Position numbers and translations under genes: made by a program
Assembly: GCA_037349105.1 (NCBI GenBank)
Contig: JAYJMM010000057.1
Location: 1 to 64,000 of the forward strand
Direction of reading: 5' to 3'
Source: Limnomonas spitsbergensis
Taxonomy: Eukaryota > Chlorophyta > Chlorophyceae > Chlamydomonadales
Length of the DNA: 64,000 bases
In this document: one piece after another, positions 15,801 to 58,336 of the stretch
How positions within the stretch are numbered: position 1 is the first letter of the stretch
How the letters are laid out: each line of letters opens with the position of its first letter
The notes under the pieces: model-generated
What the model saw: the letters and a program-made list of their open reading frames with translations, nothing else
The model's database searches: none
Told to the model about the DNA's origin: nothing

Positions 15801-15868
15801 CTCCAGGACATGCTTGGCTTGCATCTTGTCCCCATATGCCTGGGTCAAATGCCCTGACAAGTGCACAC
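15785..15868 (-). CDS. METTL21-like methyltransferase, left paralogue, exon 2 (SAM motif I)
   Basis: This 84-bp exon starts after the acceptor CTGCCAACAG and ends at the donor G|GTGCGG, phase 1 at both sides. It encodes a segment ending VLEIGAGSG, the glycine-rich SAM-binding motif I of class I methyltransferases. It differs from the exon at 55,920-56,003 by a Ser for Thr in that motif and a Gly for Ala after VHLS. The next exon would carry the post-I motif and must lie left of the window, beyond the 41-bp array. The frame is intact, so the paralogue may be functional. Confidence 0.75.
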
Positions 15869-16446: not shown

Positions 16447-16540
16447 CTGCAGTCCAAACAAAGCCACCAGTGGCGTCGCCGCTACCGTCAGCATCGAGGG
16501 ATTTGATCTGCAGGCCTGGCAGGCCCACTTGGTCCGCCAT
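16447..16540 (-). CDS. METTL21-like methyltransferase, left paralogue, exon 1
   Basis: This 94-bp exon begins at an ATG (MADQVG) and ends at the donor GCAG|GTGGGA with one base left over, matching the phase of the next exon. It encodes GGFVWTAG, which joins to VHLSAHL/VHLSGHL to give the (V/L)W..(S/A)G..L segment that precedes motif I in METTL21-type enzymes. The ATG directly follows TTCAG, so it could be either the true start or an internal exon after an acceptor. The sequence is almost identical to the right copy at 56,584-56,677. Confidence 0.7.
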
Positions 16541-29238: not shown

Positions 29239-29441
29239 TCAGCCTGACAGTTGCGACCTCTCTACTAGGAAGAGGGAAAGGACCTCCCCCGCCACATTAT
29301 TGTCATCCCCGTTTGCTGGCACCATGCCCATCATTGGCTGGCTCCTTGTGGCATCCAGCTGGCCGCTGCTGCTGCTGTCGCTGCTGCGGGCGCCTGGCGG
29401 GCTGCTGCTGCTGCTCCTGCCATCTCTTGATGTCGGCAACC
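29239..29441 (-). CDS. METTL21-like gene, exon 5 (tentative terminal exon)
   Basis: Follows the acceptor GATCAAG and is open to TGA at 29,239-29,241. It encodes GLPTSRDG, a Ser-rich stretch, and EVLSLFLVERSQLSG at the C-terminus. The last part could supply the final beta strand of the methyltransferase fold. The phase agrees with exon 4, but the acceptor is weak and the Ser run comes from a GCT/AGC-type microsatellite. Confidence 0.45.
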
Positions 29442-32400
29442 CTTGATCAGGTCTCACCAGCACCAGGCCACAGCCTGAAGGACAGGCATGACATGGCAGA
29501 AACGAGCGGGTTGATGCTTGGGTACTTCAAATCCAGTCATATACCGGTACATGTAGGATAGAAAAGCACTTTTTAAATTCAACGAGGTACGCCGTCACCC
29601 ATTTCACCTTGCAAGAAAAAGGTCCATGATCCGCCAACTTTGCTGCATGCATCAGAGACCAGCATGTTCTAGGCACTCCAGACCACATTTGGGAGGCTGC
29701 CGGGATGCAAACACTGAGCCCATTTGGACCAAACCTTCACCAGTCTATACCCGGTGCCTCAAACCACAGGGCTCCATGCACCCAGCCCTGCCGACTGTAG
29801 ACTGGGTTGTCCTTATGGTATAGTTGAAGCACCTTCAAACATATAATGGCAGTGACAGGCTCGACGGCAAAGAAAGAAAGATAGAAAACTACGCCTGCAG
29901 GGGCGTGAGGGTTAAGGAAAGAGCGCGGCATGGGCCTAGGCCGCGTCCGGGCTGTTACCATCTCGACGGCAGAAGAATTAAAACCCAACATTACACACGA
30001 GAGCCTGCCACACCTGACCTGCAAAGGCCTCCACAATATGCAAGTCCATTGCTGGCCCCCGATGCCGATGTGCCAACAGAATAGTCGTCCCGCTATGCGC
30101 CTCGATTAGCTGACTCAGCAGATTGGACAGAGCGGGGAGAGAGGCCGTCATGTACATCACATCGGAGGCTGACACAGCATGCGGGTACAAGGGTACAGAG
30201 ATTGGTATTTGCGCAAGGAGGAAGTAATAGGAGCTGCGTAGCAATTGAGGCTGGCAGGACAAAAGGGCACAGTGGTACAGAGGTTGGCATTACGTGCAGA
30301 GGATAGGAAACAGGCTGTATGGGACCTAATGAAGCTGACATGGCACAATGGAAAGATGGTGCAGGGTAGTGAGAGGCTTGCATTGTGAGAGGAGGAAATA
30401 AAGGAGGCCGCGATACCCTTGGCACCCTTAGTCGAGTGAATAATGACACCCTGGGGCTGTTCAGATCTTGGACTAGTTCTGATGGATCTGCTGCATCATC
30501 GATAATTACATCAAATCAGTGATGTGCCGATGACGGCCCTTTCGGTGCATAAATTATGTACCGGTTGCTAAATTTCAACCACCGTAATCTCAGGGCCAAT
30601 TCAACTACTTTTATCTGTAAGACATAGGTACTTAAATGTCTTCAATGATTTTTAGATGACGGCTTCATTACACAGCACTGCATCGAAGACATTTGCTGGC
30701 TGAGCCTTGGGTCTGCATTGACCTGATGGATATATTGAATCTGCCATGGCCCGACCGGCATGCTAGATCTGCCTTCACCTCCTGGATCTGCTAGATCTGC
30801 TTCCTACTGACGGGCCTATTGCATCTGCCAGATCTGCCTCCTCTAACAGGCCTTCTATATCTGCCTTCGCCTGCTAGATCTGCTCACCCTGACGGGCTTA
30901 CTTTATCCGCCATTACCTGATGGATCTGCTAGATCTGCTCATCCTGCCGGGTGTGCTATATCTACCTTCACCTGATAGATCTGCTAGATCTGCTCAACCT
31001 GGCGGGTGCACTATATCTACCGTCACCTAATGGATCTACTAGATCTGCCTCAACATGACGGGCCTACCACATCTACCTCAGCCTCATGGATTTACTAGAC
31101 CTCCCTCAACCTGACAGGCCTCACCCATCACGTAATCGTATCTCTGGTTGAGTATCCGAGGGTCTGGTCTGCTCCACTCCAGCTCCGAGACCAAGGCACT
31201 GCCTCCAGCCGCCTCGATCAGCCCGGCATTGAGGTCTACATTTGAGCGTGCCAGGGGCAGCACAGCGGCCAGATCCGTCAGCTGTACATGCGCACCCAGG
31301 CATGCGCATGTGATTCCAACAATACCTAGTTTGATGGGGAAGAAGAGGAGGGTGGGGGGGAAGGGGAAAAGGACATGCGTCAGCACATATGCACCCAGGC
31401 ATATGACATTCCGACAAAACATTTTGTGATGGGGAAGGTGAAGAAGGGGAGGAGGAGGGGGGGGATATGCTTCAGTACATATGTGCACCAGGTAGGCGAA
31501 TGTGATTCCGACAGCACTTCAGGTGAGGAAGAGAGGGAGGATCAGGAGGAGGAGTGAAGGGGGGAGGAGAGAGAGAGGAAGAGGAAGAAATACGAGGGAG
31601 AAGAGAAGAAGGAGGAGAAGGACGATATGCTTTACTGCATAGACAGATGCAACAGAGCACCCTGGCCAGAGAGGAAAGTAGAGAAGGATGATTGGCAGGA
31701 GGGATTAGGGTCGACCGCACTAGAGCGACCCAGAAGCCTAAAGTGTAAAGGAGTGCAAGCAGTTTTTTGGTGAAGGAGATGAGGATGGAGTGCATTTGGA
31801 AAGCTGCACAACCGAGGGTAAGGTGCATGCCTCTCGAGAAACACTGATTATTAAATTATTTATATATCCCACATCAGTATACAATAGCCCCCCGCAGCCC
31901 CCCTCATCACTTTCCCTTGCTTCTCTAACCTGTGCGCCCCTGAGACAGGCCCCTTGCTGCCCCCTGCACCCTCTGTACCCCTGAGACAGGCCCCATGCTG
32001 CCCCCTGCACCCTCTGTACCCCTGAGACAGGCCCCTAGCTGCCCCCTGCACCCTCTGTGCCCCTGAGACAGGCCCCATGCTGCCCCCTGCACCCTCTGTA
32101 CCCCTGAGACAGGCCCCATGCTGCCCCCTGCACCCTCTGTACCCCTGAGACAGGCCCCATGATGCCCCCTGCACCCACTGTACCCCTGAGACAGGCCCCA
32201 TGCTGCCCCCTGTACCCTCTGTACCCCTGAGACAGACCCCCTGATGCCCCCTGCACCCTCTGTACCCTGAGACAGGCCCCCTGATGCCCCCTGTACCCTC
32301 TGTACCCCTGAGACAGGCCCCTTGCTGCCCCCTGCACCCTCTGTACGCCTGAGACAGGCCCCATGCTGCCCCCTTGCACCCTCTGTACCCCTGAGACAGG

Positions 32401-35400
32401 CCCCATGCTGCCCCCTGCACCCTCTGTACCCCTGAGACAGGCCCCTTGCTGCCCCTGCACCCTCTGTACCCCTGAGACAGGCCCCATGATGCCCCCTGCA
32501 CCCTCTGTACCCCTGAGACAGCCCCCCTGATGCCCCCTGCACCCTCTGTACCCCTAAGACAGACCCCCTGACGCCCCCTGTACCCTCTGTACCCCTGAGA
32601 CAGGCCCCATGCTGCCCCCTGTACCCTCTGTACCCCTGAGACAGGCCCCATGCTGTCCCCTGTACCCTCGGTACCCCTAAGACAGGCCCCATGCTGCCCC
32701 CTGCACCCTCTGTACCCCTGAGAAAGCCCCCCTGATGCACCCTGCACCCTCTGTACCCCTGAGACAGGCCCCATGATGCCCCATGCACCCTCTGTGCCCC
32801 TGAGACAGGCCCCATGCTGCCCCCTGCACCCTCTGTACCCCTAAGACAGCCCCCCTGATGCCCCCTGCACCCTCTGTTCCCCTGAAACAGACCCCCAGAT
32901 GCCCCCTGCACACTCTGTACCCCTTAGACAGCCCCCCTGATGCCCCCTACACCCTCTGTACCACTTAGACAGGCCCCCTGATGCCCCCTGCACCCTCTGT
33001 ACCCCTGAGACAGACCCCTTGCTGCCCCCTGCACCCTCTGTGCCCCTAAGACAGGCCCCATGATGCCCCCTGTACCCTCTGTACCCCTGAGACAGGCCCC
33101 TTGCTGCCCCATGCACCCTCTGTACCCCTTAGACAGCCCCCATGATGCCCCCTGCACCCTCTGTTCCCCTGAGACAGACCCCCTGCTGCCCCCTGCACCC
33201 TCTGTACCCCTTAGACAGCCCCCCTGATGCCCCCTGCACCCTCTGTTCCCCTGAGACAGACCCCCTGCTGCCCCCTGCACCCTCTGTACCCCTGAGACAG
33301 GCCCCTTGCTGCTCCCTGCGCCCTCTGTACCCCTAAGACAGCCCCCCTGATGCCCCCTGCACCCTCTGTTCCCCTGAGACAGGCCCCATGATGCCCCCTG
33401 CACCCTCTGTACCCCTTAGACAGCCCCCCTGATGCCCCCTGCACCCTCTGTACCCCTGAGACAGGCCCCATGATGCCCCCTGCACCCTCTGTAACCCTAA
33501 GACAGCCCCCCTGATGCCCCCTGCACCCCCTGTACCCCTTAGACAGCCCCCCTGATGCCCCCTGCACCCTCTGTACCCCTGAGACAGGCCCCCTGATGCC
33601 CCCTGCACCCTCTGTACCCCTAAGACAGCCCCCCTGATGCCCCCTGCACCCTCTGTTCCCCTGCGACAGGCACCCTGATGCCCCATGCACCCTCTGTACC
33701 CCTGAGACAGGCCCCCTGATGCCCCCTGCACCCTCTGTGCCCCTCAGACAGCCCCCCTGATGCCCCCTGTACCCTCTGTACCCCTGAGAAAGCCCCATGC
33801 TGCCCCCTGTACCCTGTGAACCCCTGAGACAGGCCCCTTGCTGCCCCCTTGCACCCTCTGTACCCCTGACACAGGCCCCATGCTGCCCCCTGTACCCTCT
33901 GTACCCCTGAGACAGGCCCCTTGCTGCCCCCTGCACCCTCAGTACCCCTGAGACAGGCCCCATGATGCCCCCTGCACCCTCTGTACCCCTGAGACAGGCC
34001 CCATGATGCCCCCTGCACCCTCTGTGCCCCTGAGACAGGCCCCATGCTGCCCCCTGCACCCTCTGTACCCCTGAGACAGGCCCCATGCTGCCCCCTGCAC
34101 CCTCTGTACCCCTGAGACAGGCCCCATGATGCCCCCTGCACCCACTGTACCCCTGAGACAGGCCCCATGCTGCCCCCTGTACCCTCTGTACCCCTGAGAC
34201 AGACCCCCTGATGCCCCCTGCACCCTCTGTACCCTGAGACAGGCCCCCTGATGCCCCCTGTACCCTCTGTACCCCTGAGACAGGCCCCTTGCTGCCCCCT
34301 GCACCCTCTGTACGCCTGAGACAGGCCCCATGCTGCCCCCTTGCACCCTCTGTACCCCTGAGACAGGCCCCATGCTGCCCCCTGCACCCTCTGTACCCCT
34401 GAGACAGGCCCCTTGCTGCCCCCTGCACCCTCTGTACCCCTGAGACAGGCCCCATGATGCCCCCTGCACCCTCTGTACCGCTGAGACAGCCCCCCTGATG
34501 CCCCCTGCACCCTCTGTACCCCTAAGACAGACCCCCTGATGCCCCCTGTACCCTCTGTACCCCTGAGACAGGCCCCATGCTGCCCCCTGTACCCTCTGTA
34601 CCCCTGAGACAGGCCCCATGCTGTCCCCTGTACCCTCGGTACCCCTAAGACAGGCCCCATGCTGCCCCCTGCACCCTCTGTACCCCTGAGAAAGCCCCCC
34701 TGATGCACCCTGTACCCTCTGTACCCCTGAGACAGGCCCCATGATGCCCCATGCACCCTCTGTGCCCCAGAGACAGGCCCCATGCTGCCCCCTGCACCCT
34801 CTGTACCCCTAAGACAGCCCCCCTGATGCCCCCTGCACCCTCTGTTCCCCTGAAACAGACCCCCAAATGCCCCCTGCACAATCTGTACCCCTTAGACAGC
34901 CCCCCTGATGCCCCCTACACCCTCTGTACCACTTAGACAGGCCCCCTGATGCCCCCTGCACCCTCTGTACCCCTGAGACAGACCCCTTGCTGCCCCCTGC
35001 ACCCTCTGTGCCCCTAAGACAGGCCCCATGATGCCCCCTGTACCCTCTGTACCCCTGAGACAGGCCCCTTGCTGCCCCATGCACCCTCTGTACCCCTTAG
35101 ACAGCCCCCATGATGCCCCCTGTACCCTCTGTTCCCCTGAGACAGACCCCATGCTGCCCCCTGCACCCTCTGTACCCCTTAGACAGCCCCCCTGATGCCC
35201 CCTGCACCCTCTGTTCCCCTGAGACAGACCCCCTGCTGCCCCCTGCACCCTCTGTACCCCTGAGACAGGCCCCTTGCTGCTCCCTGCGCCCTCTGTACCC
35301 CTAAGACAGCCCCCCTGATGCCCCCTGCACCCTCTGTTCCCCTGAGACAGGCCCCATGATGCCCCCTGCACCCTCTGTACCCCTTAGACAGCCCCCCTGA

Positions 35401-38400
35401 TGCCCCCTGTACCCTCTGTACCCCTGAGACAGGCCCCATGATGCCCCCTGCACCCTCTGTAACCCTAAGACAGCCCCCCTGATGCCCCCTGCACCCCCTG
35501 TACCCCTTAGACAGCCCCCCTGATGCCCCCTGCACCCTCTGTACCCCTGAGACAGGCCCCCTGATGCCCCCTGCACCCTCTGTACCCCTAAGACAGCCCC
35601 CCTGATGCCCCCTGCACCCTCTGTTCCCCTGCGACAGGCACCCTGATGCCCCATGCACCCTCTGTACCCCTGAGACAGGCCCCCTGATGCCCCCTGCACC
35701 CTCTGTGCCCCTGAGACAGCCCCCCTGATGCCCCCTGTACCCTCTGTACCCCTGAGAAAGCCCCATGCTGCCCCCTGTACCCTGTGAACCCCTGAGACAG
35801 GCCCCTTGCTGCCCCCTTGCACCCTCTGTACCCCTGACACAGGCCCCATGCTGCCCCCTGTACCCTCTGTACCCCTGAGACAGGCCCCTTGCTGCCCCCT
35901 GCACCCTCAGTACCCCTGAGACAGGCCCCATGATGCCCCCTGCACCCTCTGTACCCCTGAGACAGGCCCCATGATGCCCCCTGCACCCTCTGTACCCCTG
36001 AGACAGGCCCCATGATGCCCCCTGCACCCTCTGTACCCCTGAGAAAGCCCCATGCTGCCCCCTGTACCCTGTGAACCCCTGAGACAGGCCCCTTGCTGCC
36101 CCCTTGCACCCTCTGTACCCCTGACACAGGCCCCATGCTGCCCCCTGTACCCTCTGTACCCCTGAGACAGGCCCCTTGCTGCCCCCTGCACCCTCAGTAC
36201 CCCTGAGACAGGCCCCATGATGCCCCCTGCACCCTCTGTACCCCTGAGACAGGCCCCATGATGCCCCCTGCACCCTCTGTACCCCTGAGACAGGCCCCAT
36301 GATGCCCCCTGCACCCTCTGTACCCCTGAGACAGGCCCCCTGATGCCCCCTGTACCCTCTGTACCCCTGAGACAGGCCCCATGATGCCCCCTGTACCCCT
36401 GAGACATGCCCCATGCTGCCCCCTTGCACCCTCTGTACCCCTGAGACAGGCCCCATGATGCCATCGGCACCCTCTGCACCCCTGAGACAGGCCCCCTGAT
36501 GCCCCCTGTACCCTCTGTACCCCTGAGACAGGCCCCCTAGTGCCCCCTGCACCCTCTGTACCCCTTAGACAGGCCCCCTGATGCCCCCTGCACCCTCTGT
36601 ACCCCTGAGACAGGCCCCCTGATGCCCCCTGTACCCTCTGTACCCCTGAGACAGCCCCCCTGATGCCCCCTGCACCCTCTGTACCCCTAAGACAGACCCC
36701 CTGATGCCCCCTGTACCCTCTGTACCCCTGAGACAGGCCCCATGCTGCCCCCTGTACCCTCTGTACCCCTGAGACAGGCCCCATGCTGTCCCCTGTACCC
36801 TCGGTACCCCTAAGACAGGCCCCATGCTGCCCCCTGCACCCTCTGTACCCCTGAGAAAGCCCCCCTGATGCACCCTGTACCCTCTGTACCCCTGAGACAG
36901 GCCCCATGATGCCCCATGCACCCTCTGTGCCCCAGAGACAGGCCCCATGCTGCCCCCTGCACCCTCTGTACCCCTAAGACAGCCCCCCTGATGCCCCCTG
37001 CACCCTCTGTTCCCCTGAAACAGACCCCCAAATGCCCCCTGCACACTCTGTACCCCTTAGACAGCCCCCCTGATGCCCCCTACACCCTCTGTACCACTTA
37101 GACAGGCCCCCTGATGCCCCCTGCACCCTCTGTACCCCTGAGACAGACCCCTTGCTGCCCCCTGCACCCTCTGTGCCCCTAAGACAGGCCCCATGATGCC
37201 CCCTGTACCCTCTGTACCCCTGAGACAGGCCCCTTGCTGCCCCATGCACCCTCTGTACCCCTTAGACAGCCCCCATGATGCCCCCTGTACCCTCTGTTCC
37301 CCTGAGACAGACCCCATGCTGCCCCCTGCACCCTCTGTACCCCTTAGACAGCCCCCCTGATGCCCCCTGCACCCTCTGTTCCCCTGAGACAGACCCCCTG
37401 CTGCCCCCTGCACCCTCTGTACCCCTGAGACAGGCCCCTTGCTGCTCCCTGCGCCCTCTGTACCCCTAAGACAGCCCCCCTGATGCCCCCTGCACCCTCT
37501 GTTCCCCTGAGACAGGCCCCATGATGCCCCCTGCACCCTCTGTACCCCTGAGACAGGCCCCCTGATGCCCCCTGTACCCTCTGTACCCCTGAGACAGGCC
37601 CCATGATGCCCCCTGCACCCTCTGTAACCCTAAGACAGCCCCCCTGATGCCCCCTGCACCCCCTGTACCCCTTAGACAGCCCCCCTGATGCCCCCTGCAC
37701 CCTCTGTACCCCTGAGACAGGCCCCCTGATGCCCCCTGCACCCTCTGTACCCCTAAGACAGCCCCCCTGATGCCCCCTGCACCCTCTGTTCCCCTGCGAC
37801 AGGCACCCTGATGCCCCATGCACCCTCTGTACCCCTGAGACAGGCCCCCTGATGCCCCCTGCACCCTCTGTACCCCTGAGACAGCCCCCCTGATGCCCCC
37901 TGTACCCTCTGTACCCCTGAGAAAGCCCCATGCTGCCCCCTGTACCCTGTGAACCCCTGAGACAGGCCCCTTGCTGCCCCCTTGCACCCTCTGTACCCCT
38001 GACACAGGCCCCATGCTGCCCCCTGTACCCTCTGTACCCCTGAGACAGGCCCCTTGCTGCCCCCTGCACCCTCAGTACCCCTGAGACAGGCCCCATGATG
38101 CCCCCTGCACCCTCTGTACCCCTGAGACAGGCCCCATGATGCCCCCTGCACCCTCTGTACCCCTGAGACAGGCCCCATGATGCCCCCTGCACCCTCTGTA
38201 CCCCTGAGAAAGCCCCATGCTGCCCCCTGTACCCTGTGAACCCCTGAGACAGGCCCCTTGCTGCCCCCTTGCACCCTCTGTACCCCTGACACAGGCCCCA
38301 TGCTGCCCCCTGTACCCTCTGTACCCCTGAGACAGGCCCCTTGCTGCCCCCTGCACCCTCAGTACCCCTGAGACAGGCCCCATGATGCCCCCTGCACCCT

Positions 38401-41400
38401 CTGTACCCCTGAGACAGGCCCCATGATGCCCCCTGCACCCTCTGTACCCCTGAGACAGGCCCCATGATGCCCCCTGCACCCTCTGTACCCCTGAGACAGG
38501 CCCCCTGATGCCCCCTGTACCCTCTGTACCCCTGAGACAGGCCCCATGATGCCCCCTGTACCCCTGAGACATGCCCCATGCTGCCCCCTTGCACCCTCTG
38601 TACCCCTGAGACAGGCCCCATGATGCCATCGGCACCCTCTGCACCCCTGAGACAGGCCCCCTGATGCCCCCTGTACCCTCTGTACCCCTGAGACAGGCCC
38701 CCTAGTGCCCCCTGCACCCTCTGTACCCCTTAGACAGGCCCCCTGATGCCCCCTGCACCCTCTGTACCCCTGAGACAGGCCCCCTGATGCCCCCTGTACC
38801 CTCTGTACCCCTGAGACAGGCCTCCTGATGTCCCCTGCACCCTCTGTACCCCTGAGACAGGCCCCCTGATGCCCCCTTTACCCTCTGTACCCCTGAGACA
38901 GGCCCCATGATGCCCCCTGCACCCTATGTACCCCTTAGACAGGCCCCCTGATGCCCCCTGCACCCTCTGTACCCCTGAGACAGGCCCCCTGATGCCCCTG
39001 CATCCTCTGTACCCCTGAGACAGGCCCCCTGATGCCCCCTGCACCCTCTGTACCCCTGAAACAGGCCCCCTGATGCCCCCTGTACCCTCTGTACCCCTGA
39101 GACAGGCCCCCTGATGCCCCCTGTACCCTCTGTACCCCTGAGACAGGCCCCCTGATGCCCCCTGCACCCTCTGTACCCCTGAGACAGGCCCCCTGATGCC
39201 CCCTGCACCCTCTGTACCCCTAACACAGCCCCCCTGATGCCCCCTGCACCCTCTGTTCCCCTGCGACAGGCACCCTGATGCCCCATGCACCCTCTGTACC
39301 CCTGAGACAGGCCCCCTGATGCCCCCTGCACCCTCTGTACCCCTGAGATAGCCCCCCTGATGCCCCCTGTACCCTCTGTACCCCTGAGACAGGCCCTTAT
39401 GCCCCCTGTACCCTCTGTACCCCTGAGACAGGCCCCATGATGCCCCCTGTACCCCTGAGACATGCCCCATGCTGCCCCCTTGCACCCTCTGTACCCCTGA
39501 GACAGGCCCCATGATGCCATCGGCACCCTCTGCACCCCTGAGACAGGCCCCCTGATGCCCCCTGTACCCTCTGTACCCCTGAGACAGGCCCCCTAGTGCC
39601 CCCTGCACCCTCTGTACCCCTGAGACAGGCCCCCTGATGCCCCCTGCACCCTCTGTACCCCTGAGACAGGCCCCCTGATGCCCCCTGTACCCTCTGTACC
39701 CCTGAGACAGGCCTCCTGATGTCCCCTGCACCCTCTGTACCCCTGAGACAGGCCCCCTGATGCCCCCTTTACCCTCTGTACCCCTGAAACAGGCCCCATG
39801 ATGCCCCCTGCACCCTATGTACCCCTTAGACAGGCCCCCTGATGCCCCCTGCACCCTCTGTACCCCTGAGACAGGCCCCCTGATGCCCCCTGCATCCTCT
39901 GTACCCCTGAGACAGGCCCCCTGATGCCCCCTGCACCCTCTGTACCCCTGAAACAGGCCCCCTGATGCCCCCTGTACCCTCTGTACCCCTGAGACAGGCC
40001 CCCTGATGCCCCCTGTACCCTCTGTACCCCTGAGACAGGCCCCCTGATGCCCCCTGCACCCTCTGTACCCCTGAGACAGGCCCCCTGATGCCCCCTGCAC
40101 CCTCTGTACCCCTAAGACAGGCCCCCTGATGCCCCCTGCACCCTCTGTTCCCCTGCGACAGGCCCCCTGATGCCCCCTGTACCCTCTGTACCCCTGAGAC
40201 AGGCCCCTTGCTGCCCCCTGCACCCTCTGTACGCCTGAGACAGGCCCCATGCTGCCCCCTTGCACCCTCTGTACCCCTGAGACAGGCCCCATGCTGCCCC
40301 CTGCACCCTCTGTACCCCTGAGACAGGCCCCTTGCTGCCCCCTGCACCCTCTGTACCCCTGAGACAGGCCCCCTGATGCCCCCTGCACCCTCTGTACCGC
40401 TGAGACAGCCCCCCTGATGCCCCCTGCACCCTCTGTACCCCTAAGACAGACCCCCTGATGCCCCCTGTACCCTCTGTACCCCTGAGACAGGCCCCATGCT
40501 GCCCCCTGTACCCTCTGTACCCCTGAGACAGGCCCCATGCTGTCCCCTGTACCCTCGGTACCCCTCAGACAGGCCCCATGCTGCCCCCTGCACCCTCTGT
40601 ACCCCTGAGAAAGCCCCCCTGATGCACCCTGTACCCTCTGTACCCCTGAGACAGGCCCCATGATGCCCCATGCACCCTCTGTGCCCCAGAGACAGGCCCC
40701 ATGCTGCCCCCTGCACCCTCTGTACCCCTAAGACAGCCCCCCTGATGCCCCCTGCACCCTCTGTTCCCCTGAAACAGACCCCCAAATGCCCCCTGCACAC
40801 TCTGTACCCCTTAGACAGCCCCCCTGATGCCCCCTACACCCTCTGTACCACTTAGACAGGCCCCCTGATGCCCCCTGCACCCTCTGTACCCCTGAGACAG
40901 ACCCCTTGCTGCCCCCTGCACCCTCTGTGCCCCTAAGACAGGCCCCATGATGCCCCCTGTACCCTCTGTACCCCTGAGACAGGCCCCTTGCTGCCCCATG
41001 CACCCTCTGTACCCCTTAGACAGCCCCCATGATGCCCCCTGCACCCTCTGTTCCCCTGAGACAGACCCCATGCTGCCCCCTGCACCCTCTGTACCCCTTA
41101 GACAGCCCCCCTGATGCCCCCTGCACCCTCTGTTCCCCTGAGACAGACCCCCTGCTGCCCCCTGCACCCTCTGTACCCCTGAGACAGGCCCCTTGCTGCT
41201 CCCTGCGCCCTCTGTACCCCTAAGACAGCCCCCCTGATGCCCCCTGCACCCTCTGTTCCCCTGAGACAGGCCCCATGATGCCCCCTGCACCCTCTGTACC
41301 CCTTAGACAGCCCCCCTGATGCCCCCTGTACCCTCTGTACCCCTGAGACAGGCCCCATGATGCCCCCTGCACCCTCTGTAACCCTAAGACAGCCCCCCTG

Positions 41401-44400: not shown

Positions 44401-47400
44401 CCTGAGACAGCCCCCCTGATGCCCCCTGTACCCTCTGTACCCCTGAGACAGGCCCCCTAGTGCCCCCTGCACCCTCTGTACCCCTTAGACAGGCCCCCTG
44501 ATGCCCCCTACACCCTCTGTACCACTTAGACAGGCCCCCTGATGCCCCCTGCACCCTCTGTACCCCTGAGACAGACCCCTTGCTGCCCCCTGCACCCTCT
44601 GTGCCCCTAAGACAGGCCCCATGATGCCCCCTGTACCCTCTGTACCCCTGAGACAGGCCCCTTGCTGCCCCATGCACCCTCTGTACCCCTTAGACAGCCC
44701 CCATGATGCCCCCTGCACCCTCTGTTCCCCTGAGACAGACCCCATGCTGCCCCCTGCACCCTCTGTACCCCTTAGACAGCCCCCCTGATGCCCCCTGCAC
44801 CCTCTGTTCCCCTGAGACAGACCCCCTGCTGCCCCCTGCACCCTCTGTACCCCTGAGACAGGCCCCTTGCTGCTCCCTGCGCCCTCTGTACCCCTAAGAC
44901 AGCCCCCCTGATGCCCCCTGCACCCTCTGTTCCCCTGAGACAGGCCCCATGATGCCCCCTGCACCCTCTGTACCCCTTAGACAGCCCCCCTGATGCCCCC
45001 TGTACCCTCTGTACCCCTGAGACAGGCCCCATGATGCCCCCTGCACCCTCTGTAACCCTAAGACAGCCCCCCTGATGCCCCCTGCACCCCCTGTACCCCT
45101 TAGACAGCCCCCCTGATGCCCCCTGCACCCTCTGTACCCCTGAGACAGGCCCCCTGATGCCCCCTGCACCCTCTGTACCCCTAAGACAGCCCCCCTGATG
45201 CCCCCTGCACCCTCTGTTCCCCTGCGACAGGCACCCTGATGCCCCATGCACCCTCTGTACCCCTGAGACAGGCCCCCTGATGCCCCCTGCACCCTCTGTG
45301 CCCCTGAGACAGCCCCCCTGATGCCCCCTGTACCCTCTGTACCCCTGAGAAAGCCCCATGCTGCCCCCTGTACCCTGTGAACCCCTGAGACAGGCCCCTT
45401 GCTGCCCCCTTGCACCCTCTGTACCCCTGACACAGGCCCCATGCTGCCCCCTGTACCCTCTGTACCCCTGAGACAGGCCCCTTGCTGCCCCCTGCACCCT
45501 CAGTACCCCTGAGACAGGCCCCATGATGCCCCCTGCACCCTCTGTACCCCTGAGACAGGCCCCATGATGCCCCCTGCACCCTCTGTACCCCTGAGACAGG
45601 CCCCATGATGCCCCCTGCACCCTCTGTACCCCTGAGAAAGCCCCATGCTGCCCCCTGTACCCTGTGAACCCCTGAGACAGGCCCCTTGCTGCCCCCTTGC
45701 ACCCTCTGTACCCCTGACACAGGCCCCATGCTGCCCCCTGTACCCTCTGTACCCCTGAGACAGGCCCCTTGCTGCCCCCTGCACCCTCAGTACCCCTGAG
45801 ACAGGCCCCATGATGCCCCCTGCACCCTCTGTACCCCTGAGACAGGCCCCATGATGCCCCCTGCACCCTCTGTACCCCTGAGACAGGCCCCATGATGCCC
45901 CCTGCACCCTCTGTACCCCTGAGACAGGCCCCCTGATGCCCCCTGTACCCTCTGTACCCCTGAGACAGGCCCCATGATGCCCCCTGTACCCCTGAGACAT
46001 GCCCCATGCTGCCCCCTTGCACCCTCTGTACCCCTGAGACAGGCCCCATGATGCCATCGGCACCCTCTGCACCCCTGAGACAGGCCCCCTGATGCCCCCT
46101 GTACCCTCTGTACCCCTGAGACAGGCCCCCTAGTGCCCCCTGCACCCTCTGTACCCCTTAGACAGGCCCCCTGATGCCCCCTGCACCCTCTGTACCCCTG
46201 AGACAGGCCCCCTGATGCCCCCTGTACCCTCTGTACCCCTGAGACAGGCCTCCTGATGTCCCCTGCACCCTCTGTACCCCTGAGACAGGCCCCCTGATGC
46301 CCCCTTTACCCTCTGTACCCCTGAGACAGGCCCCATGATGCCCCCTGCACCCTATGTACCCCTTAGACAGGCCCCCTGATGCCCCCTGCACCCTCTGTAC
46401 CCCTGAGACAGGCCCCCTGATGCCCCCTGCATCCTCTGTACCCCTGAGACAGGCCCCCTGATGCCCCCTGCACCCTCTGTACCCCTGAAACAGGCCCCCT
46501 GATGCCCCCTGTACCCTCTGTACCCCTGAGACAGGCCCCCTGATGCCCCCTGTACCCTCTGTACCCCTGAGACAGGCCCCCTGATGCCCCCTGCACCCTC
46601 TGTACCCCTGAGACAGGCCCCCTGATGCCCCCTGCACCCTCTGTACCCCTAACACAGCCCCCCTGATGCCCCCTGCACCCTCTGTTCCCCTGCGACAGGC
46701 ACCCTGATGCCCCATGCACCCTCTGTACCCCTGAGACAGGCCCCCTGATGCCCCCTGCACCCTCTGTACCCCTGAGATAGCCCCCCTGATGCCCCCTGTA
46801 CCCTCTGTACCCCTGAGACAGGCCCTTATGCCCCCTGTACCCTCTGTACCCCTGAGACAGGCCCCATGATGCCCCCTGTACCCCTGAGACATGCCCCATG
46901 CTGCCCCCTTGCACCCTCTGTACCCCTGAGACAGGCCCCATGATGCCATCGGCACCCTCTGCACCCCTGAGACAGGCCCCCTGATGCCCCCTGTACCCTC
47001 TGTACCCCTGAGACAGGCCCCCTAGTGCCCCCTGCACCCTCTGTACCCCTTAGACAGGCCCCCTGATGCCCCCTGCACCCTCTGTACCCCTGAGACAGGC
47101 CCCCTGATGCCCCCTGTACCCTCTGTACCCCTGAGACAGGCCTCCTGATGTCCCCTGCACCCTCTGTACCCCTGAGACAGGCCCCCTGATGCCCCCTTTA
47201 CCCTCTGTACCCCTGAGACAGGCCCCATGATGCCCCCTGCACCCTCTGTACCCCTTAGACAGGCCCCCTGATGCCCCCTGCACCCTCTGTACCCCTGAGA
47301 CAGGCCCCCTGATGCCCCCTGCACCCTCTGTACCCCTGAGACAGGCCCCCTGATGCCCCCTGCACCCTCTGTACCCCTGAGACAGGCCCCCTGATGCCCC

Positions 47401-50400
47401 CTGTACCCTCTGTACCCCTGAGACAGGCCCCCTGATGCCCCCTGTACCCTCTGTACCCCTGAGACAGGCCCCCTGATGCCCCCTGCACCCTCTGTACCCC
47501 TGAGACAGGCCCCCTGATGCCCCCTGCACCCTCTGTACCCCTAAGACAGCCCCCCTGATGCCCCCTGCACCCTCTGTTCCCCTGCGACAGGCACCCTGAT
47601 GCCCCATGCACCCTCTGTACCCCTGAGACAGGCCCCCTGATGCCCCCTGCACCCTCTGTACCCCTGAGATAGCCCCCCTGATGCCCCCTGTACCCTCTGT
47701 ACCCCTGAGACAGGCCCCATGCTGCCCCCTGTACCCTGTGTACCCCTGAGACAGGCCCCATGCTGCCCCCTTGCACCCTCTGTACCCCTGACACAGGCCC
47801 CATGCTGCCCCCTGTACCCTCTGTACCCCTGAGACAGGCCCCTTGCTGCCCCCTGCACCCTCTGTACCCCTGAGACAGGCCCCTTGATGCCCCCTGCACC
47901 CTCTGTACCCCTGAGACAGGCCCCATGATGCCCCCTGCACCCTCTGTACCCCTGAGACAGGCCCCCTGATGCCCCCTGTACCCTCTGTACCCCTGAGACA
48001 TGCCCCATGCTGCCCCTTTGCACCCTCTGTACCCCTGAGACAGGCCCCATGATGCCATCGGCACCCTCTGCACCCCTGAGACAGCCCCCCTGATGCCCCC
48101 TGTACCCTCTGTACCCCTGAGACAGGCCCCCTGATGCCCCCTTTACCCTCTGTACCCCTTAGACAGGCCCCCTGATGCGCCCTGCACCCTCTGTACCCCT
48201 GAGACAGGCCCCCTGATGCCCCCTGTACCCTCTGTACCCCTGAGACAGGCCTCCTGATGTCCCCTGCACCCTCTGTACCCCTGAGACAGGCCCCCTGATG
48301 CCCCCTTTACCCTCTGTACCCCTGAGATAGGCCCCATGATGCCCCCTGCACCCTATGTACCCCTTAGACAGGCCCCCTGATGCCCCCTGCACCCTCTGTA
48401 CCCCTGAAACAGGCCCCCTGATGCCCCCTGCATCCTCTGTACCCCTGAGACAGGCCCCCTGATGCCCCCTGCACCCTCTGTACCCCTGAGACAGGCCCCC
48501 TGATGCCCCCTGCACCCTCTGTACCCCTGAGACAGGCCCCCTGATGCCCCCTGCACCCTCTGTGCCCCTGAGACAGCCCCCCTGATGCCCCCTGCACCCT
48601 CTGTACCCCTGAGACAGGCCCCATGATGCCCCCTGCACCCTCTGTAACCCTAAGACAGCCCCCCTGATGCCCCCTGCACCCCCTGTACCCCTTAGACAGC
48701 CCCCCTGATGCCCCCTGCACCCTCTGTACCCCTGAGACAGGCCCCCTGATGCCCCCTGCACCCTCTGTACCCCTAAGACAGCCCCCCTGATGCCCCCTGC
48801 ACCCTCTGTTCCCCTGCGACAGGCACCCTGATGCCCCATGCACCCTCTGTACCCCTGAGACAGGCCCCCTGATGCCCCCTGCACCCTCTGTGCCCCTGAG
48901 ACAGCCCCCCTGATGCCCCCTGTACCCTCTGTACCCCTGAGAAAGCCCCATGCTGCCCCCTGTACCCTGTGAACCCCTGAGACAGGCCCCTTGCTGCCCC
49001 CTTGCACCCTCTGTACCCCTGACACAGGCCCCATGCTGCCCCCTGCACCCTCTGTACCCCTGAGATAGGCCCCATGATGCCCCCTGCACCCTCTGTACCC
49101 CTGAGACAGGCCCCATGATGCCCCCTGCACCCTCTGTACCCCTGAGACAGGCCCCCTGATGCCCCCTGTACCCTCTGTACCCCAGAGACAGGCCCCATGA
49201 TGCCCCCTGCACCCTCTGTACCCCTGAGACAGGCCCCCTGATGCCCCCTGTACCCTCTGTACCCCTGAGACAGGCCCCCTGATGCCCCCTGCACCCTCTG
49301 TACCCCTGAGACAGGCCCCCTGATGCCCCCTGTACCCTCTGTACCCCTGAGACATGCCCCATGCTGCCCCTTTGCACCCTCTGTACCCCTGAGACAGGCC
49401 CCATGATGCCATCGGCACCCTCTTCACCCCTGAGACAGCCCCCCTGATGCCCCCTGTACCCTCTGTACCCCTGAGACAGGCCCCCTAGTGCCCCCTGCAC
49501 CCTCTGTACCCCTTAGACAGGCCCCCTGATGCGCCCTGCACCCTCTGTACCCCTGAGACAGGCCCCCTGATGCCCCCTGTACCCTCTGTACCCCTGAGAC
49601 AGGCCTCCTGATGTCCCCTGCACCCTCTGTACCCCTGAGACAGGCCCCCTGATGCCCCCTTTACCCTCTGTACCCCTGAGATAGGCCCCATGATGCCCCC
49701 TGCACCCTATGTACCCCTTAGACAGGCCCCCTGATGCCCCCTGCACCCTCTGTACCCCTGAAACAGGCCCCCTGATGCCCCCTGCACCCTCTGTACCCCT
49801 GAGACAGGCCCCCTGATGCCCCCTGCACCCTCTGTACCCCTGAGACAGGCCCCCTGATGCCCCCTGCACCCTCTGTACCCCTGAGACAGGCCCCCTGATG
49901 CCCCCTGCACCCTCTGTACCCCTGAGACAGCCCCCCTGATGCCCCCTGCACCCTCTGTACCCCTGAGACAGGCCCCATGATGCCCCCTGCACCCTCTGTA
50001 ACCCTAAGACAGCCCCCCTGATGCCCCCTGCACCCCCTGTACCCCTTAGACAGCCCCCCTGATGCCCCCTGCACCCTCTGTACCCCTGAGACAGGCCCCC
50101 TGATGCCCCCTGCACCCTCTGTACCCCTAAGACAGCCCCCCTGATGCCCCCTGCACCCTCTGTTCCCCTGCGACAGGCACCCTGATGCCCCATGCACCCT
50201 CTGTACCCCTGAGACAGGCCCCCTGATGCCCCCTGCACCCTCTGTGCCCCTGAGACAGCCCCCCTGATGCCCCCTGTACCCTCTGTACCCCTGAGAAAGC
50301 CCCATGCTGCCCCCTGTACACTGTGAACCCCTGAGACAGGCCCCTTGCTGCCCCCTTGCACCCTCTGTACCCCTGACACAGGCCCCATGCTGCCCCCTGT

Positions 50401-53400
50401 ACCCTCTGTACCCCTGAGACAGGCCCCTTGCTGCCCCCTGCACCCTCAGTACCCCTGAGACAGGCCCCATGATGCCCCCTGCACCCTCTGTACCCCTGAG
50501 ACAGGCCCCATGATGCCCCCTGCACCCTCTGTACCCCTGAGACAGGCCCCATGATGCCCCCTGCACCCTCTGTACCCCTGAGACAGGCCCCCTGATGCCC
50601 CCTGTACCCTCTGTACCCCTGAGACAGGCCCCATGATGCCCCCTGTACCCCTGAGACATGCCCCATGCTGCCCCCTTGCACCCTCTGTACCCCTGAGACA
50701 GGCCCCATGATGCCATCGGCACCCTCTGCACCCCTGAGACAGGCCCCCTGATGCCCCCTGTACCCTCTGTACCCCTGAGACAGGCCCCCTAGTGCCCCCT
50801 GCACCCTCTGTACCCCTTAGACAGGCCCCCTGATGCCCCCTGCACCCTCTGTACCCCTGAGACAGGCCCCCTGATGCCCCCTGTACCCTCTGTACCCCTG
50901 AGACAGGCCTCCTGATGTCCCCTGCACCCTCTGTACCCCTGAGACAGGCCCCCTGATGCCCCCTTTACCCTCTGTACCCCTGAGACAGGCCCCATGATGC
51001 CCCCTGCACCCTATGTACCCCTTAGACAGGCCCCCTGATGCCCCCTGCACCCTCTGTACCCCTGAGACAGGCCCCCTGATGCCCCCTGCATCCTCTGTAC
51101 CCCTGAGACAGGCCCCCTGATGCCCCCTGCACCCTCTGTACCCCTGAAACAGGCCCCCTGATGCCCCCTGTACCCTCTGTACCCCTGAGACAGGCCCCCT
51201 GATGCCCCCTGTACCCTCTGTACCCCTGAGACAGGCCCCCTGATGCCCCCTGCACCCTCTGTACCCCTGAGACAGGCCCCCTGATGCCCCCTGCACCCTC
51301 TGTACCCCTAAGACAGCCCCCCTGATGCCCCCTGCACCCTCTGTTCCCCTGCGACAGGCACCCTGATGCCCCATGCACCCTCTGTACCCCTGAGACAGGC
51401 CCCCTGATGCCCCCTGCACCCTCTGTACCCCTGAGATAGCCCCCCTGATGCCCCCTGTACCCTCTGTACCCCTGAGACAGGCCCCATGCTGCCCCCTGTA
51501 CCCTGTGTACCCCTGAGACAGGCCCCATGCTGCCCCCTTGCACCCTCTGTACCCCTGACACAGGCCCCATGCTGCCCCCTGTACCCTCTGTACCCCTGAG
51601 ACAGGCCCCTTGCTGCCCCCTGCACCCTCTGTACCCCTGAGACAGGCCCCTTGATGCCCCCTGCATCCTCTGTACCCCTGAGACAGGCCCCATGATGCCC
51701 CCTGCACCCTCTGTACCCCTGAGACAGGCCCCCTGATGCCCCCTGTACCCTCTGTACCCCTGAGACATGCCCCATGCTGCCCCTTTGCACCCTCTGTACC
51801 CCTGAGACAGGCCCCATGATGCCATCGGCACCCTCTGCACCCCTGAGACAGCCCCCCTGATGCCCCCTGTACCCTCTGTACCCCTGAGACAGGCCCCCTA
51901 GTGCCCCCTGCACCCTCTGTACCCCTTAGACAGGCCCCCTGATGCGCCCTGCACCCTCTGTACCCCTGAGACAGGCCCCCTGATGCCCCCTGTACCCTCT
52001 GTACCCCTGAGACAGGCCTCCTGATGTCCCCTGCACCCTCTGTACCCCTGAGACAGGCCCCCTGATGCCCCCTTTACCCTCTGTACCCCTGAGATAGGCC
52101 CCATGATGCCCCCTGCACCCTATGTACCCCTTAGACAGGCCCCCTGATGCCCCCTGCACCCTCTGTACCCCTGAAACAGGCCCCCTGATGCCCCCTGCAT
52201 CCTCTGTACCCCTGAGACAGGCCCCCTGATGCCCCCTGCACCCTCTGTACCCCTGAGACAGGCCCCCTGATGCCCCCTGCACCCTCTGTACCCCTGAGAC
52301 AGGCCCCCTGATGCCCCCTGCACCCTCTGTGCCCCTGAGACAGCCCCCCTGATGCCCCCTGCACCCTCTGTACCCCTGAGACAGGCCCCATGATGCCCCC
52401 TGCACCCTCTGTAACCCTAAGACAGCCCCCCTGATGCCCCCTGCACCCCCTGTACCCCTTAGACAGCCCCCCTGATGCCCCCTGCACCCTCTGTACCCCT
52501 GAGACAGGCCCCCTGATGCCCCCTGCACCCTCTGTACCCCTAAGACAGCCCCCCTGATGCCCCCTGCACCCTCTGTTCCCCTGCGACAGGCACCCTGATG
52601 CCCCATGCACCCTCTGTACCCCTGAGACAGGCCCCCTGATGCCCCCTGCACCCTCTGTGCCCCTGAGACAGCCCCCCTGATGCCCCCTGTACCCTCTGTA
52701 CCCCTGAGAAAGCCCCATGCTGCCCCCTGTACCCTGTGAACCCCTGAGACAGGCCCCTTGCTGCCCCCTTGCACCCTCTGTACCCCTGACACAGGCCCCA
52801 TGCTGCCCCCTGTACCCTCTGTACCCCTGAGACAGGCCCCTTGCTGCCCCCTGCACCCTCAGTACCCCTGAGACAGGCCCCATGATGCCCCCTGCACCCT
52901 CTGTACCCCTGAGACAGGCCCCATGATGCCCCCTGCACCCTCTGTACCCCTGAGACAGGCCCCATGATGCCCCCTGCACCCTCTGTACCCCTGAGACAGG
53001 CCCCCTGATGCCCCCTGTACCCTCTGTACCCCTGAGACAGGCCCCATGATGCCCCCTGTACCCCTGCGACAGGCCCCATGCTGCCCCCTTGCACCCTCTG
53101 TACCCCTGAGACAGGCCCCATGATGCCATCGGCACCCTCTGCACCCCTGAGACAGGCCCCCTGATGCCCCCTGTACCCTCTGTACCCCTGAGACAGGCCC
53201 CCTAGTGCCCCCTGCACCCTCTGTACCCCTTAGACAGGCCCCCTGATGCCCCCTGCACCCTCTGTACCCCTGAGACAGGCCCCCTGATGCCCCCTGTACC
53301 CTCTGTACCCCTGAGACAGGCCTCCTGATGTCCCCTGCACCCTCTGTACCCCTGAGACAGGCCCCCTGATGCCCCCTTTACCCTCTGTACCCCTGAGACA

Positions 53401-56400
53401 GGCCCCATGATGCCCCCTGCACCCTATGTACCCCTTAGACAGGCCCCCTGATGCCCCCTGCACCCTCTGTACCCCTGAGACAGGCCCCCTGATGCCCCCT
53501 GCATCCTCTGTACCCCTGAGACAGGCCCCCTGATGCCCCCTGCACCCTCTGTACCCCTGAAACAGGCCCCCTGATGCCCCCTGTACCCTCTGTACCCCTG
53601 AGACAGGCCCCCTGATGCCCCCTGTACCCTCTGTACCCCTGAGACAGGCCCCCTGATGCCCCCTGCACCCTCTGTACCCCTGAGACAGGCCCCCTGATGC
53701 CCCCTGCACCCTCTGTACCCCTAAGACAGCCCCCCTGATGCCCCCTGCACCCTCTGTTCCCCTGCGACAGGCACCCTGATGCCCCATGCACCCTCTGTAC
53801 CCCTGAGACAGGCCCCCTGATGCCCCCTGCACCCTCTGTACCCCTGAGATAGCCCCCCTGATGCCCCCTGTACCCTCTGTACCCCTGAGACAGGCCCCAT
53901 GCTGCCCCCTGTACCCTGTGTACCCCTGAGACAGGCCCCATGCTGCCCCCTTGCACCCTCTGTACCCCTGACACAGGCCCCATGCTGCCCCCTGTACCCT
54001 CTGTACCCCTGAGACAGGCCCCTTGCTGCCCCCTGCACCCTCTGTACCCCTGAGACAGGCCCCCTGATGCCCCCTGCATCCTCTGTACCCCTGAGACAGG
54101 CCCCATGATGCCCCCTGCACCCTCTGTACCCCTGAGACAGGCCCCATGATGCCCCCTGCACCCTCTGTACCCCTGAGACAGGCCCCCTGATGCCCCCTGT
54201 ACCCTCTGTACCCCTGAGACAGGCCCCATGATGCCCCCTGCACCCTCTGTACCCCTGAGACAGGCCCCCTGATGCCCCCTGTACCCTCTGTACCCCTGAG
54301 ACATGCCCCATGCTGCCCCTTTGCACCCTCTGTACCCCTGAGACAGGCCCCATGATGCCATCGGCACCCTCTGCACCCCTGAGACAGCCCCCCTGATGCC
54401 CCCTGTACCCTCTGTACCCCTGAGACAGGCCCCATGATGCCCCCTGCACCCTCTGTACCCCTGAGACAGGCCCCCTGATGCCCCCTGTACCCTCTGTACC
54501 CCTGAGACAGGCCCCCTGATGCCCCCTGCACCCTCTGTACCCCTGAGACAGGCCCCCTGATGCCCCCTGTACCCTCTGTACCCCTGAGACATGCCCCATG
54601 CTGCCCCTTTGCACCCTCTGTACCCCTGAGACAGGCCCCATGATGCCATCGGCACCCTCTGCACCCCTGAGACAGCCCCCCTGATGCCCCCTGTACCCTC
54701 TGTACCCCTGAGACAGGCCCCCTAGTGCCCCCTGCACCCTCTGTACCCCTTAGACAGGCCCCCTGATGCGCCCTGCATCCTCTGTACCCCTGAGACAGGC
54801 CCCCTGATGCCCCCTGTACCCTCTGTACCCCTGAGACAGGCCTCCTGATGTCCCCTGCACCCTCTGTACCCCTGAGACAGGCCCCCTGATGCCCCCTTTA
54901 CCCTCTGTACCCCTGAGATAGGCCCCATGATGCCCCCTGCACCCTATGTACCCCTTAGACAGGCCCCCTGATGCCCCCTGCACCCTCTGTACCCCTGAAA
55001 CAGGCCCCATGATGCCCCCTGCATCCTCTGTACCCCTGAGACAGGCCCCCTGATGCCCCCTGCACCCTCTGTACCCCTGAGACAGGCCCCCTGATGCCCC
55101 CTGCACCCTCTGTACCCCTGAGACAGGCCCCCTGATGCCCCCTGTACCCTCTGTACCCCTGAGACAGGCCCCCTGATGCCCCCTGCACCCTCTGTACCCC
55201 TGAGACAGGCCCCCTGATGCCCCCTGCACCCTCTGTACCCCTGAGACAGGCCCCCTGATGCCCCCTGCACCCTCTGTACCCCTGAGACAGGCCCCCTGAT
55301 GCCCCCTGTACCCTCTGTACCCCTGAGACAGGCCCCCTGATCCCCCCTGCACCCTCTGTACCCCTGAGACAGGCCCCCTGATGCCCCCTGCACCCTCTGT
55401 ACCCCTGAGACAGGCCCCATGCTGCCCTTTGCACCCTCTGTACCCCTGAGACAGGCCCCCTGATGCCCCTTCCCTTCACACCTGTACCGGCACCAAAATC
55501 CAGCCATCTAATCCCCTCGTCTCTCTGCACCTGTGCAGGCATTAATATCCCCTCCGTTCCCTTATTTTCTCCGCACCTGTGCCGGCGCCAATCCCCTCCC
55601 CTCCCCTCCCCTCTGTTCTCCGCACCTGTTCCGGCGCCAATCCCCTCCCCTCCCCTCCCCTCTGTTCTCCGCACCTGTGCCGGCGCCAATCCCCTCCCCT
55701 CCCCTCCCCTCTGTTCTCCGCACCTGTTCCGGCGCCAATCCCCTCCCCTCCCATCCCCTCTGTTCTCTGCACCTGTGCCGGCGCCAATCCCCTCCCCTCC
55801 CCTCCCCTCTGTTCTCCGAACCTGTGCCGGCGCCAATCCCCTCCCCTCCCATCCCCTCTGTTCTCCGCACCTGTTCCGGCGCCAATCCCCTCCCCTCCCC
55901 TCCCCTCTGTTCTCCGCACCTGTGCCGGCGCCAATCTCCAGGACATGCTTGGCTTGCATCTTGTCCCCATATGCCTGGGTCAAATGCGCTGACAAGTGCA
56001 CACCTGTTGGCAGTGGCTTGACAAGGTGAAGCATGCGGCAACCTAGCTGCTGCTGCTGCATTCACGCAGCCACCCTTAGCTTAATCCAAAGGGGCTAGTC
56101 AGAGCCAACCAGTGGGCACCCTATGAACGTGATGCCTAAGCGCAACCGTACATATATGTGTCATGGATCAGTGCTGTGCAATTGCGCCGTAATTCAGGAA
56201 TCATGCAAGTAATTACTCTTTCTGGTAAAGGTAGCTGAATCTGCCTTGAAAGTACGTTGACTGAAACTCAGCTACGTAATTCAGCCAGCGTAAGGACAAT
56301 AATCGGCACAGCACTGGTCCAGATACATACCAATATACCATTAGCACCATGTGCATACTACAGAGGGCATACCATGTTTTGAGGTATTGTTTGTGTTATT

Positions 56401-57838: not shown

Positions 57839-58336
57839 TGCGCTGTACTGCGTACATTGCAGTATCCCGGGTCTGAAATAACTGCAATTTGACGTACGCA
57901 CCCGTTGCTGCTCCCTAACCAGGGAGTTTTGCAGGATAGCCTTGAAGGCGTCAGGCATCTCCAGGCCTGCACGCGCGATGCTTGCATGGCGACATGGGGC
58001 TTTTGCAAGGGAGGACGGGGCCAGTGCATGGCGACGACTGGCTTGGTTCTTCACACCAACGCCATGCAAGGGCGGAAAAATGTTGGGCTTGGTCCCAAGG
58101 GTTCCTGTTGCTCCTGATAGTGTTGTTGCAGATGCTGATGTTGCTGTAATTTTCCGCAAGCATATTCTGCTGATATGCTGCAGTGCCAGGATCCTACTGA
58201 CGCGGTCATGCAAGAGAGCTGGTGGCGTCCCCCTAGAAGGTGCAGCCTGCAGCCTCTGCTGCTGCTGTGCTGGTGCCAGGAGCACTAGTCTACCCGGCCT
58301 GAGCGGCATAGCCATTGGACGAGGATTCAAAGTGAT
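57839..58336. other. No confident gene
   Basis: Open frames overlap on both strands, one of them Gln-rich on the minus strand near 58,150-58,060 from CAACAG repeats. None has a recognisable domain or splice structure. Confidence 0.35.

Follow-up and report, generated by a model that had tools for sequence, protein, structure and literature searches.

Minisatellites of the mirage kind at intron-exon boundaries of a METTL21-like gene in the green alga Limnomonas spitsbergensis

Minisatellites that span intron-exon boundaries, termed mirages, are to our knowledge an obscure observation, described in amphioxus and in a small number of human genes. Human IFI6 (6-16) is said (Turri 1995) to carry a minisatellite with multiple splice donors, the downstream repeat units of which serve as donors. 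Here we describe boundary repeats in a METTL21-like gene of the green alga Limnomonas spitsbergensis. The gene lies on the minus strand of a window of 64,000 nucleotides at the start of contig JAYJMM010000057.1 (C57:1-64000), and the genome searched comprised 260.2 Mb in 124 contigs. Like IFI6, the gene has a donor-containing repeat at an exon end.

Mirage minisatellites are reported in amphioxus for Adh3 and for the globin genes BflGb6 and BflGb9 (PMC3087553). They occur at 5' and 3' boundaries with units of 10-72 and 150-160 bp, and AG or GT is found in many of the units. The same text reports regular splicing by reverse transcription PCR (RT-PCR), haplotypes with six versus three units and somatic instability of the Adh3 mirage, and it proposes a model of intron gain (PMC3087553). 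The algal repeats share with those described there tandem duplications across 5' or 3' boundaries, varied unit lengths, copy number that varies (in the alga among gene copies), and AG or GT in many but not all units (donor copies here were located by motif). Homogenised inner units with the edge units excluded have their likeness here in a near-identical block followed by decayed distal units. The boundary repeats described below thus belong to the mirage minisatellites, an already published kind, and the original prediction for this window, which knew of no described case, is not supported on this point. The differences are that the present case comes from a green alga, affects four boundaries within a single gene and recurs at the corresponding four of a diverged paralog, retains decayed older copies, and is joined to an internal array of 23.5 kb. 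In addition, amphioxus splicing was followed by RT-PCR and copy number varied between haplotypes, whereas here the exon ends are read from genomic sequence and an open frame, and copy number varies among gene copies.

Tandem repeats at exon-intron boundaries, with 27 intron modifications, are also reported in a study of human segmental duplications (PMC2812944). There as here, minisatellites lie at exon-intron boundaries of recently duplicated genes, the human units averaging about 30 bp. However, according to that study transcripts were altered and new introns may form, whereas the algal exons appear to have kept their ends. For intron gain by tandem duplication (Rogers 1989), cases in fission yeast and potato are cited in a further paper (PMC4974935). 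Such gain resembles the present case in that the tandem duplication spans a junction or an AGGT site, and differs from it in that here existing junctions were multiplied and no new intron is in evidence. Our literature searches found no green-algal case, which holds for those searches only.

The METTL21-like gene in the window (copy A) has six exons, and every intron is GT-AG. Exons are numbered 1 to 5 as in the original prediction, and an additional upstream exon, revealed by ortholog alignment, is exon 0. They lie at 57902..58336 (exon 0, open from 58336, start codon not fixed), 56584..56677 (exon 1), 55920..56003 (exon 2, ending ...ATTGGCGCCGGCACAG), 31125..31325 (exon 3, with a Methyltransf_16 match), 30019..30168 (exon 4) and 29239..29474 (exon 5, carrying the stop at 29239). 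Introns 0 to 4 measure 1224, 580, 24594, 956 and 544 bp, and the reading frame of the modelled gene is open through to the stop. Exons 1-5 match Methyltransf_16 with 105.4 bits (cut-off 21). The relatives found in the database, Tetradesmus and Scenedesmus proteins among them, are 41-50% identical to the copy A protein across 198-244 residues in six of seven cases and 35% across 167 residues in the seventh. Ortholog alignments run across the modelled junctions with few gaps; since they cross junctions 0 to 3, the exon ends there are fixed. Exon 5 was placed via a paralog on contig C41. An earlier start of exon 2, which gave 13 extra residues, was rejected: ortholog alignment moved the start to 56003 and the Methyltransf_16 match rose from 96.6 to 105.4 bits. 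The query proteins for the paralog identities and for the first search for relatives still carried those 13 residues.

Boundaries were examined with a junction-spanning test, in which an alignment across the junction with at least 8 nt on each side is compared with 200 dinucleotide-preserving shuffles and expressed as z. Four of the ten boundaries of copy A, all consecutive, were found to sit in tandem repeats: donor 2 (z 19.0), acceptor 2 (8.9), donor 3 (12.7) and acceptor 3 (5.2). The repeats are different, with unit lengths of 49, 95-97, about 55 and 82-84 bp. No repeat was detected by this test at the remaining six (z -0.8 to 1.5), namely donor 0 (1.5), acceptor 0 (1.3), acceptor 1 (0.8), donor 1 (0.7), donor 4 (-0.8) and acceptor 4 (0.0). 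The original prediction had claimed both the four repeats and the absence of any from introns 1 and 4, and both claims are borne out (z -0.8 to 0.8 for the latter). Its statement that the repeats include exon sequence applies clearly to donor 2, where 17 nt of exon are taken in, and to acceptor 2, with about 40 nt, but only slightly to donor 3 and acceptor 3.

The donor-2 mirage (55548..55936, minus strand as are all repeats of this gene) consists of eight near-identical 49-bp units (7.9 copies by Tandem Repeats Finder, TRF), the first of which is the exon end itself. A unit comprises the last 17 nt of exon 2, CAG/GTGCGG (a slash marks the junction) and the G-rich start of the intron; one variant unit has GTTCGG and another GTGCAG. 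Two decayed units follow at 55460..55547 (...TGCACAG/GTGCAG and ...GGTACAG/GTGTGA), and both have counterparts in the gene copies B and C described below. Ten units are therefore counted from the exon end, in steps of 49 bp except for one of 46. A four-G-run motif has seven matches in this array and none in C41. The acceptor-2 mirage (31286..31560) contains the start of exon 3, the first base of which is 31325, and two decayed copies within the intron. In these copies the positions equivalent to the junction are 31420 and 31517, at steps of 95 and 97 bp, and identity to the exon copy is 64% and 56%. The donor-3 mirage (30871..31124) has about 4.5 units of about 55 bp from the junction (TRF 30871-31119) and takes in only about 5 nt of exon 3. 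The acceptor-3 mirage (30160..30364) contains the start of exon 4, the first base of which is 30168, and decayed copies in which the junction corresponds to positions of about 30250 and 30334, at spacings of 82 and 84 bp and with 15 and 19 mismatches in 42.

The CAG/GT within repeat units would be expected if the introns themselves arose when an exon segment containing AGGT was duplicated in tandem, the Rogers-type gain for which the published cases (PMC4974935) provide a precedent, and the repeats were relics of intron birth. That model derives both intron ends from one duplicated segment, whereas by inspection the units at donor 2 and those at acceptor 2 have different sequences and lengths, and either kind extends the exon on its own side only. 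We regard such an origin as highly improbable.

Further copies of the gene show how these repeats vary. In the neighbouring copy B, also on the minus strand of the window, exon 1 lies at 16447..16540 (by sequence match) and exon 2 at 15785..15868 (start placed as in copy A). Its donor-2 mirage (15060..15801) has 11 near-identical 49-bp units (TRF 15285-15801, 10.6 copies), then four decayed ones, and its intron 2 continues in a 41-bp array (1..15023, TRF) that runs off the contig start. Contig C119 carries copy C plus exons 3-4 of another gene copy, and the C57 and C119 copies are about 98% identical. The view of C57 and C119 as two haplotypes was rejected, the array match pattern at C57:1648-2068 recurring at C119:7930589-7931009. 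With this recurrence located where C119 ends, C57 is probably the continuation of C119, and the gene copies are probably tandem paralogs; the join rests on match coordinates and not on an end alignment, and similar patterns recur elsewhere in the C119 array. The array pattern of C57:1-4126 against the end of C119 suggests a contig overlap of about 4.1 kb.

Donor-2 units number 10 in copy A, 15 in B, 11 in C and 2 in C41, the counts comparing gene copies. The near-identical block accounts for 8, 11 and 7 of them in A, B and C, respectively, and the decayed units match between copies. Acceptor 2 is lost in copy C, where the 41-bp array runs straight into exon 3 (C119:7859630), and the donor-3 repeat of the same copy is split by an insertion of about 8.6 kb (C119:7850800-7859410).

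The C41 paralog is diverged, with 61-91% protein identity by exon, and has repeats at the same four of the 8 boundaries tested. Its z values are 6.1 for donor 2, 7.9 for acceptor 2 and 9.3 for donor 3; acceptor 3 gives 15.1 if the search is extended past an insertion of about 0.6 kb with terminal inverted repeats. Donor 1, acceptor 1, donor 4 and acceptor 4 showed no repeat in the test (z 0.9, -1.1, 0.3 and -0.7). Read by eye, C41 donor 2 shows a single full copy next to a decayed one. The occurrence of repeats at the same four boundaries in this paralog argues that the repeats are old and predate its split from the other copies. In copies B and C, one decayed unit has ATCGGTG, as does the C41 exon, whereas the present exon and the near-identical units have ATTGGCG (AATGGCG in one unit of B). 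We read the decayed unit as a relic of older exon sequence, on the evidence of one or two sites.

A genome search with the 49-bp unit returned 16 matches, 11 on C57 or C119, one on C41 and four at a single C34 site, the C34 match being weak (71-74%). The unit is essentially confined to these loci, which fits local birth. Introner elements would place similar sequence at many unrelated intron positions; the 16 matches of the 49-bp unit show no such spread, nor do, among the matches listed, those of the 41-bp unit (188 in all), which lie on C57 or C119.

Misassembly of long noisy reads in repeats deserves consideration here. The assembly is based on PacBio continuous long reads (CLR), according to the genome paper (PMC11228838); the contig starts inside an array, and a match pattern of the array close to this start is found again where C119 ends. 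Yet old, mutually divergent copies recur in A, B, C and the diverged C41 paralog, as misassembly would not produce, which leaves an artefact with next to no probability, even if exact copy numbers may be off in a noisy-read assembly.

The length of intron 2 has another source. A 41-bp minisatellite of about 576 units (31937..55469, TRF), which is not a boundary repeat, makes up more than 95% of intron 2 in copy A. Intron 2 measures 674 bp in C41, about 12.8 kb in copy C and 24,594 bp in copy A, and perhaps about 57 kb in a fourth copy, provided that C119 and C57, each of which holds part of it, join. Such drift of one intron, from 0.67 kb upwards within one gene, is due to the 41-bp array: it accounts for the length gap between copies, and one stretch similar to it can be seen by eye in the 674-bp intron of C41. 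The boundary units contribute some hundreds of bp, so the predicted growth of introns by duplication of their own boundaries is true only in a small way, intron 2 having grown mainly through its internal array. Elsewhere in the window, a 40-bp array of 10 copies lies at 28322-28725; its two C119 counterparts have 19 copies.

Repeats at both ends of existing introns, with independent unit lengths and extra donor or acceptor copies, were a further part of the original prediction, and they are found in several genes of the genome. At the acceptor of a fructose-bisphosphatase (FBPase) gene (L049:9015-9464, C41:5009015-5009464, minus strand), four upstream acceptor copies were found. The copies are like TTTCTAG/GCGAGGTCAAGC, each upstream copy has AG behind a pyrimidine tract, and the FBPase_C match begins at about the last, in-frame copy. 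Another methyltransferase gene (L005:2815-2951, on C34) has three tandem donor copies, ...CTGATCTACAAG/GTGGG, 64 and 72 bp apart, the third of which reads ACATG. At L044:1150-1459 (C119:1001150-1001459, minus strand), a small exon has its acceptor copied 94 bp upstream and its donor 115 bp downstream, the donor copy being without GT. This exon (z 11.3 and 28.0) was found through its TRF repeat and was kept out of the rate given below. In the same sampled stretch as the FBPase acceptor, six 99-bp units with ACGTACG/GTGAGTT-like sites are present at L049:4376-4967 (C41, minus strand).

The state of the extra sites bears on whether they have a function, that is, whether alternative or decoy donors and acceptors are kept to tune splicing or to help remove a very long intron. 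All ten listed donor-2 positions of copy A read CAG/GT, and five FBPase acceptor positions found keep AG behind a pyrimidine tract. Open frames traverse the 49-bp donor-2 array in three minus-strand frames, so that splicing from a donor three units further in would add 49 residues. On the other hand, the donor-2 copies listed, which keep GT and read CAG/GT or CAA/GT, were located by that very motif and are a biased set; AG has disappeared from one acceptor-2 copy and GT from the L044 donor copy, decay has also reached the second donor copy of C41, and copy number is free to vary. The ladders of decoys foreseen in the original prediction are present in the listed copies at donor 2 but partly eroded at acceptor 2, and a function for them seems very unlikely.

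We used a sample of the genome to ask how general the boundary repeats are. In twelve 10-kb stretches (L040-L051) placed at round coordinates on five contigs, tandem repeats with a period of at least 15 cover 0.4-98%, with a mean of 24%. The genome paper gives 0.10% satellites and 22.78% unclassified interspersed repeats (PMC11228838), and a share of the latter may be minisatellites. From these stretches and from other METTL-like loci, 31 test junctions not chosen for repeats were placed by homology and reading: 13 in an ARM-BTB gene, four in L005, two in L006, one in L004, three in L001, one in L002, four in L003, two in fructose-bisphosphatase and one in a 2-oxoglutarate (2OG) oxygenase. Junctions of the ARM-BTB gene were placed by eye against plant homologs in addition to Pfam, and one unplaced exon of that gene was left out. 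The number is small because Pfam searches on frames and open reading frames of the sampled stretches gave few genes. As a control, the same test was applied at 60, 110, 160 and 210 nt inside introns (29 positions each, some of which may fall past short introns).

With z > 5 as the threshold, three of the 31 junctions were positive, both L005 donors and the FBPase acceptor, and two further junctions reached z 3.3 and 3.6. The exon contributes 6 nt to the repeat at L005 donor 1, 23 nt at L005 donor 2 and 22 nt at the FBPase acceptor; L005 donor 1 was counted (z 14.7) despite its 6 nt. Intron-interior positions were positive in 10 of 116 cases (Fisher p = 1), so that no excess of junction-spanning repeats at splice sites over the intron interior, which the original prediction would lead one to expect, was found with 31 junctions and 116 positions. 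Random positions of the sampled stretches were positive in 81 of 288 cases. A homology-free scan of splice-like hexamers in the twelve stretches gave no enrichment of local copies but carries little weight, the hexamers being mostly not splice sites and satellites dominating. Local copies were present for 14/53 occurrences of GTGAGT, 1/22 of GTAAGT and 0/34 of GTGCGT, against 1374/4112, 655/3417 and 1144/3974 for anagram controls in the same order.

These rates bear on whether duplication is directed to boundaries, with junctions as hot spots (through co-transcriptional R-loops, G-rich donors or pausing) from which introns grow at their ends. Repeats at four of ten boundaries here and at the same four in the C41 paralog, the separate occurrences in FBPase, in L005 and at the L044 exon, and the G-run motif within the 49-bp unit would all suit such a process. 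However, three of 31 unselected junctions against 10 of 116 interior positions, with an even higher rate at random positions, speaks against it. Since in this small sample the junction rate is about that of the interior, a boundary-specific process is not needed, and we consider one unlikely.

Ordinary minisatellite turnover in a genome rich in tandem repeats, tolerated at junctions while the outermost original splice site still works, is in our judgment the likely explanation. Replication slippage or unequal exchange would duplicate a short stretch that happens to contain a splice junction. Such a duplication would be almost neutral provided that splicing still uses the original site lying outermost (the 5'-most donor or the 3'-most acceptor), because the mRNA would then be unchanged and the extra copies would fall inside the intron. 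Spare intronic copies would be free to decay, or could undergo amplification and homogenisation like any minisatellite. The decayed copies at donor 2 may stem from an old round and the 7-11 near-identical units adjoining the exon from a younger one, the late expansion perhaps aided by G-quadruplex-prone G-runs in the 49-bp unit; the junction would have stayed in place and the protein unaltered. Young and old donor-2 units, differing block sizes and units confined to these loci fit local birth and repeated turnover. We infer neutrality, the mutational mechanism and use of the outermost sites, the last being suggested by reading frame and orthologs.

Several observations weigh against this explanation. 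Thirty-one junctions are few, and a several-fold excess is compatible with such a sample. Four of ten boundaries in the METTL21-like gene against 10 of 116 interior positions gives a Fisher p of 0.014, for a gene picked for its repeats. The GT of the listed donor-2 copies, which were located by that motif, and the AG kept in the FBPase acceptor copies found could hint at selection. Detection also depends on settings: two scripts with other settings found no junction-spanning copy at acceptor 3 of the window, two found no copy at C41 donor 2 and one found none at C41 donor 3.

It is possible, if doubtful, that mirages occur genome-wide at about one junction in ten, that they supply duplicate splice sites for alternative exon ends or new introns, and that decayed copies keep earlier exon sequence. 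IsoSeq and RNA-seq data are published for this species, a snow alga, as stated in its genome paper (PMC11228838). Its published annotation counts 18,277 genes. A green alga with such data and with three positives among 31 unselected junctions would make the proposed link between minisatellites at splice sites and intron change measurable, beyond single cases. The interior control suggests that no special process is needed, the repeats striking everywhere and junctions tolerating them.

Other features of the window and genome were noted in passing. A perfect 103-bp tandem duplication with the telomere-like CCCTAAACCCTAAACT lies at 21819-22008 of the window. At 63466-63591, on the minus strand, the sequence matches the final portion of a protein-tyrosine phosphatase domain (PF00102, 34.8 bits). 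Two adaptin-type genes are in inverted order on C34 (618666-621620 and 872353-883174) versus C112 (955496-958035 and 693183-699149) and differ in intron length; these are haplotigs or a duplicated segment. In one sampled stretch (L046:648-9998, plus strand), an open frame of 3117 codons has two zinc-knuckle (zf-CCHC) matches.

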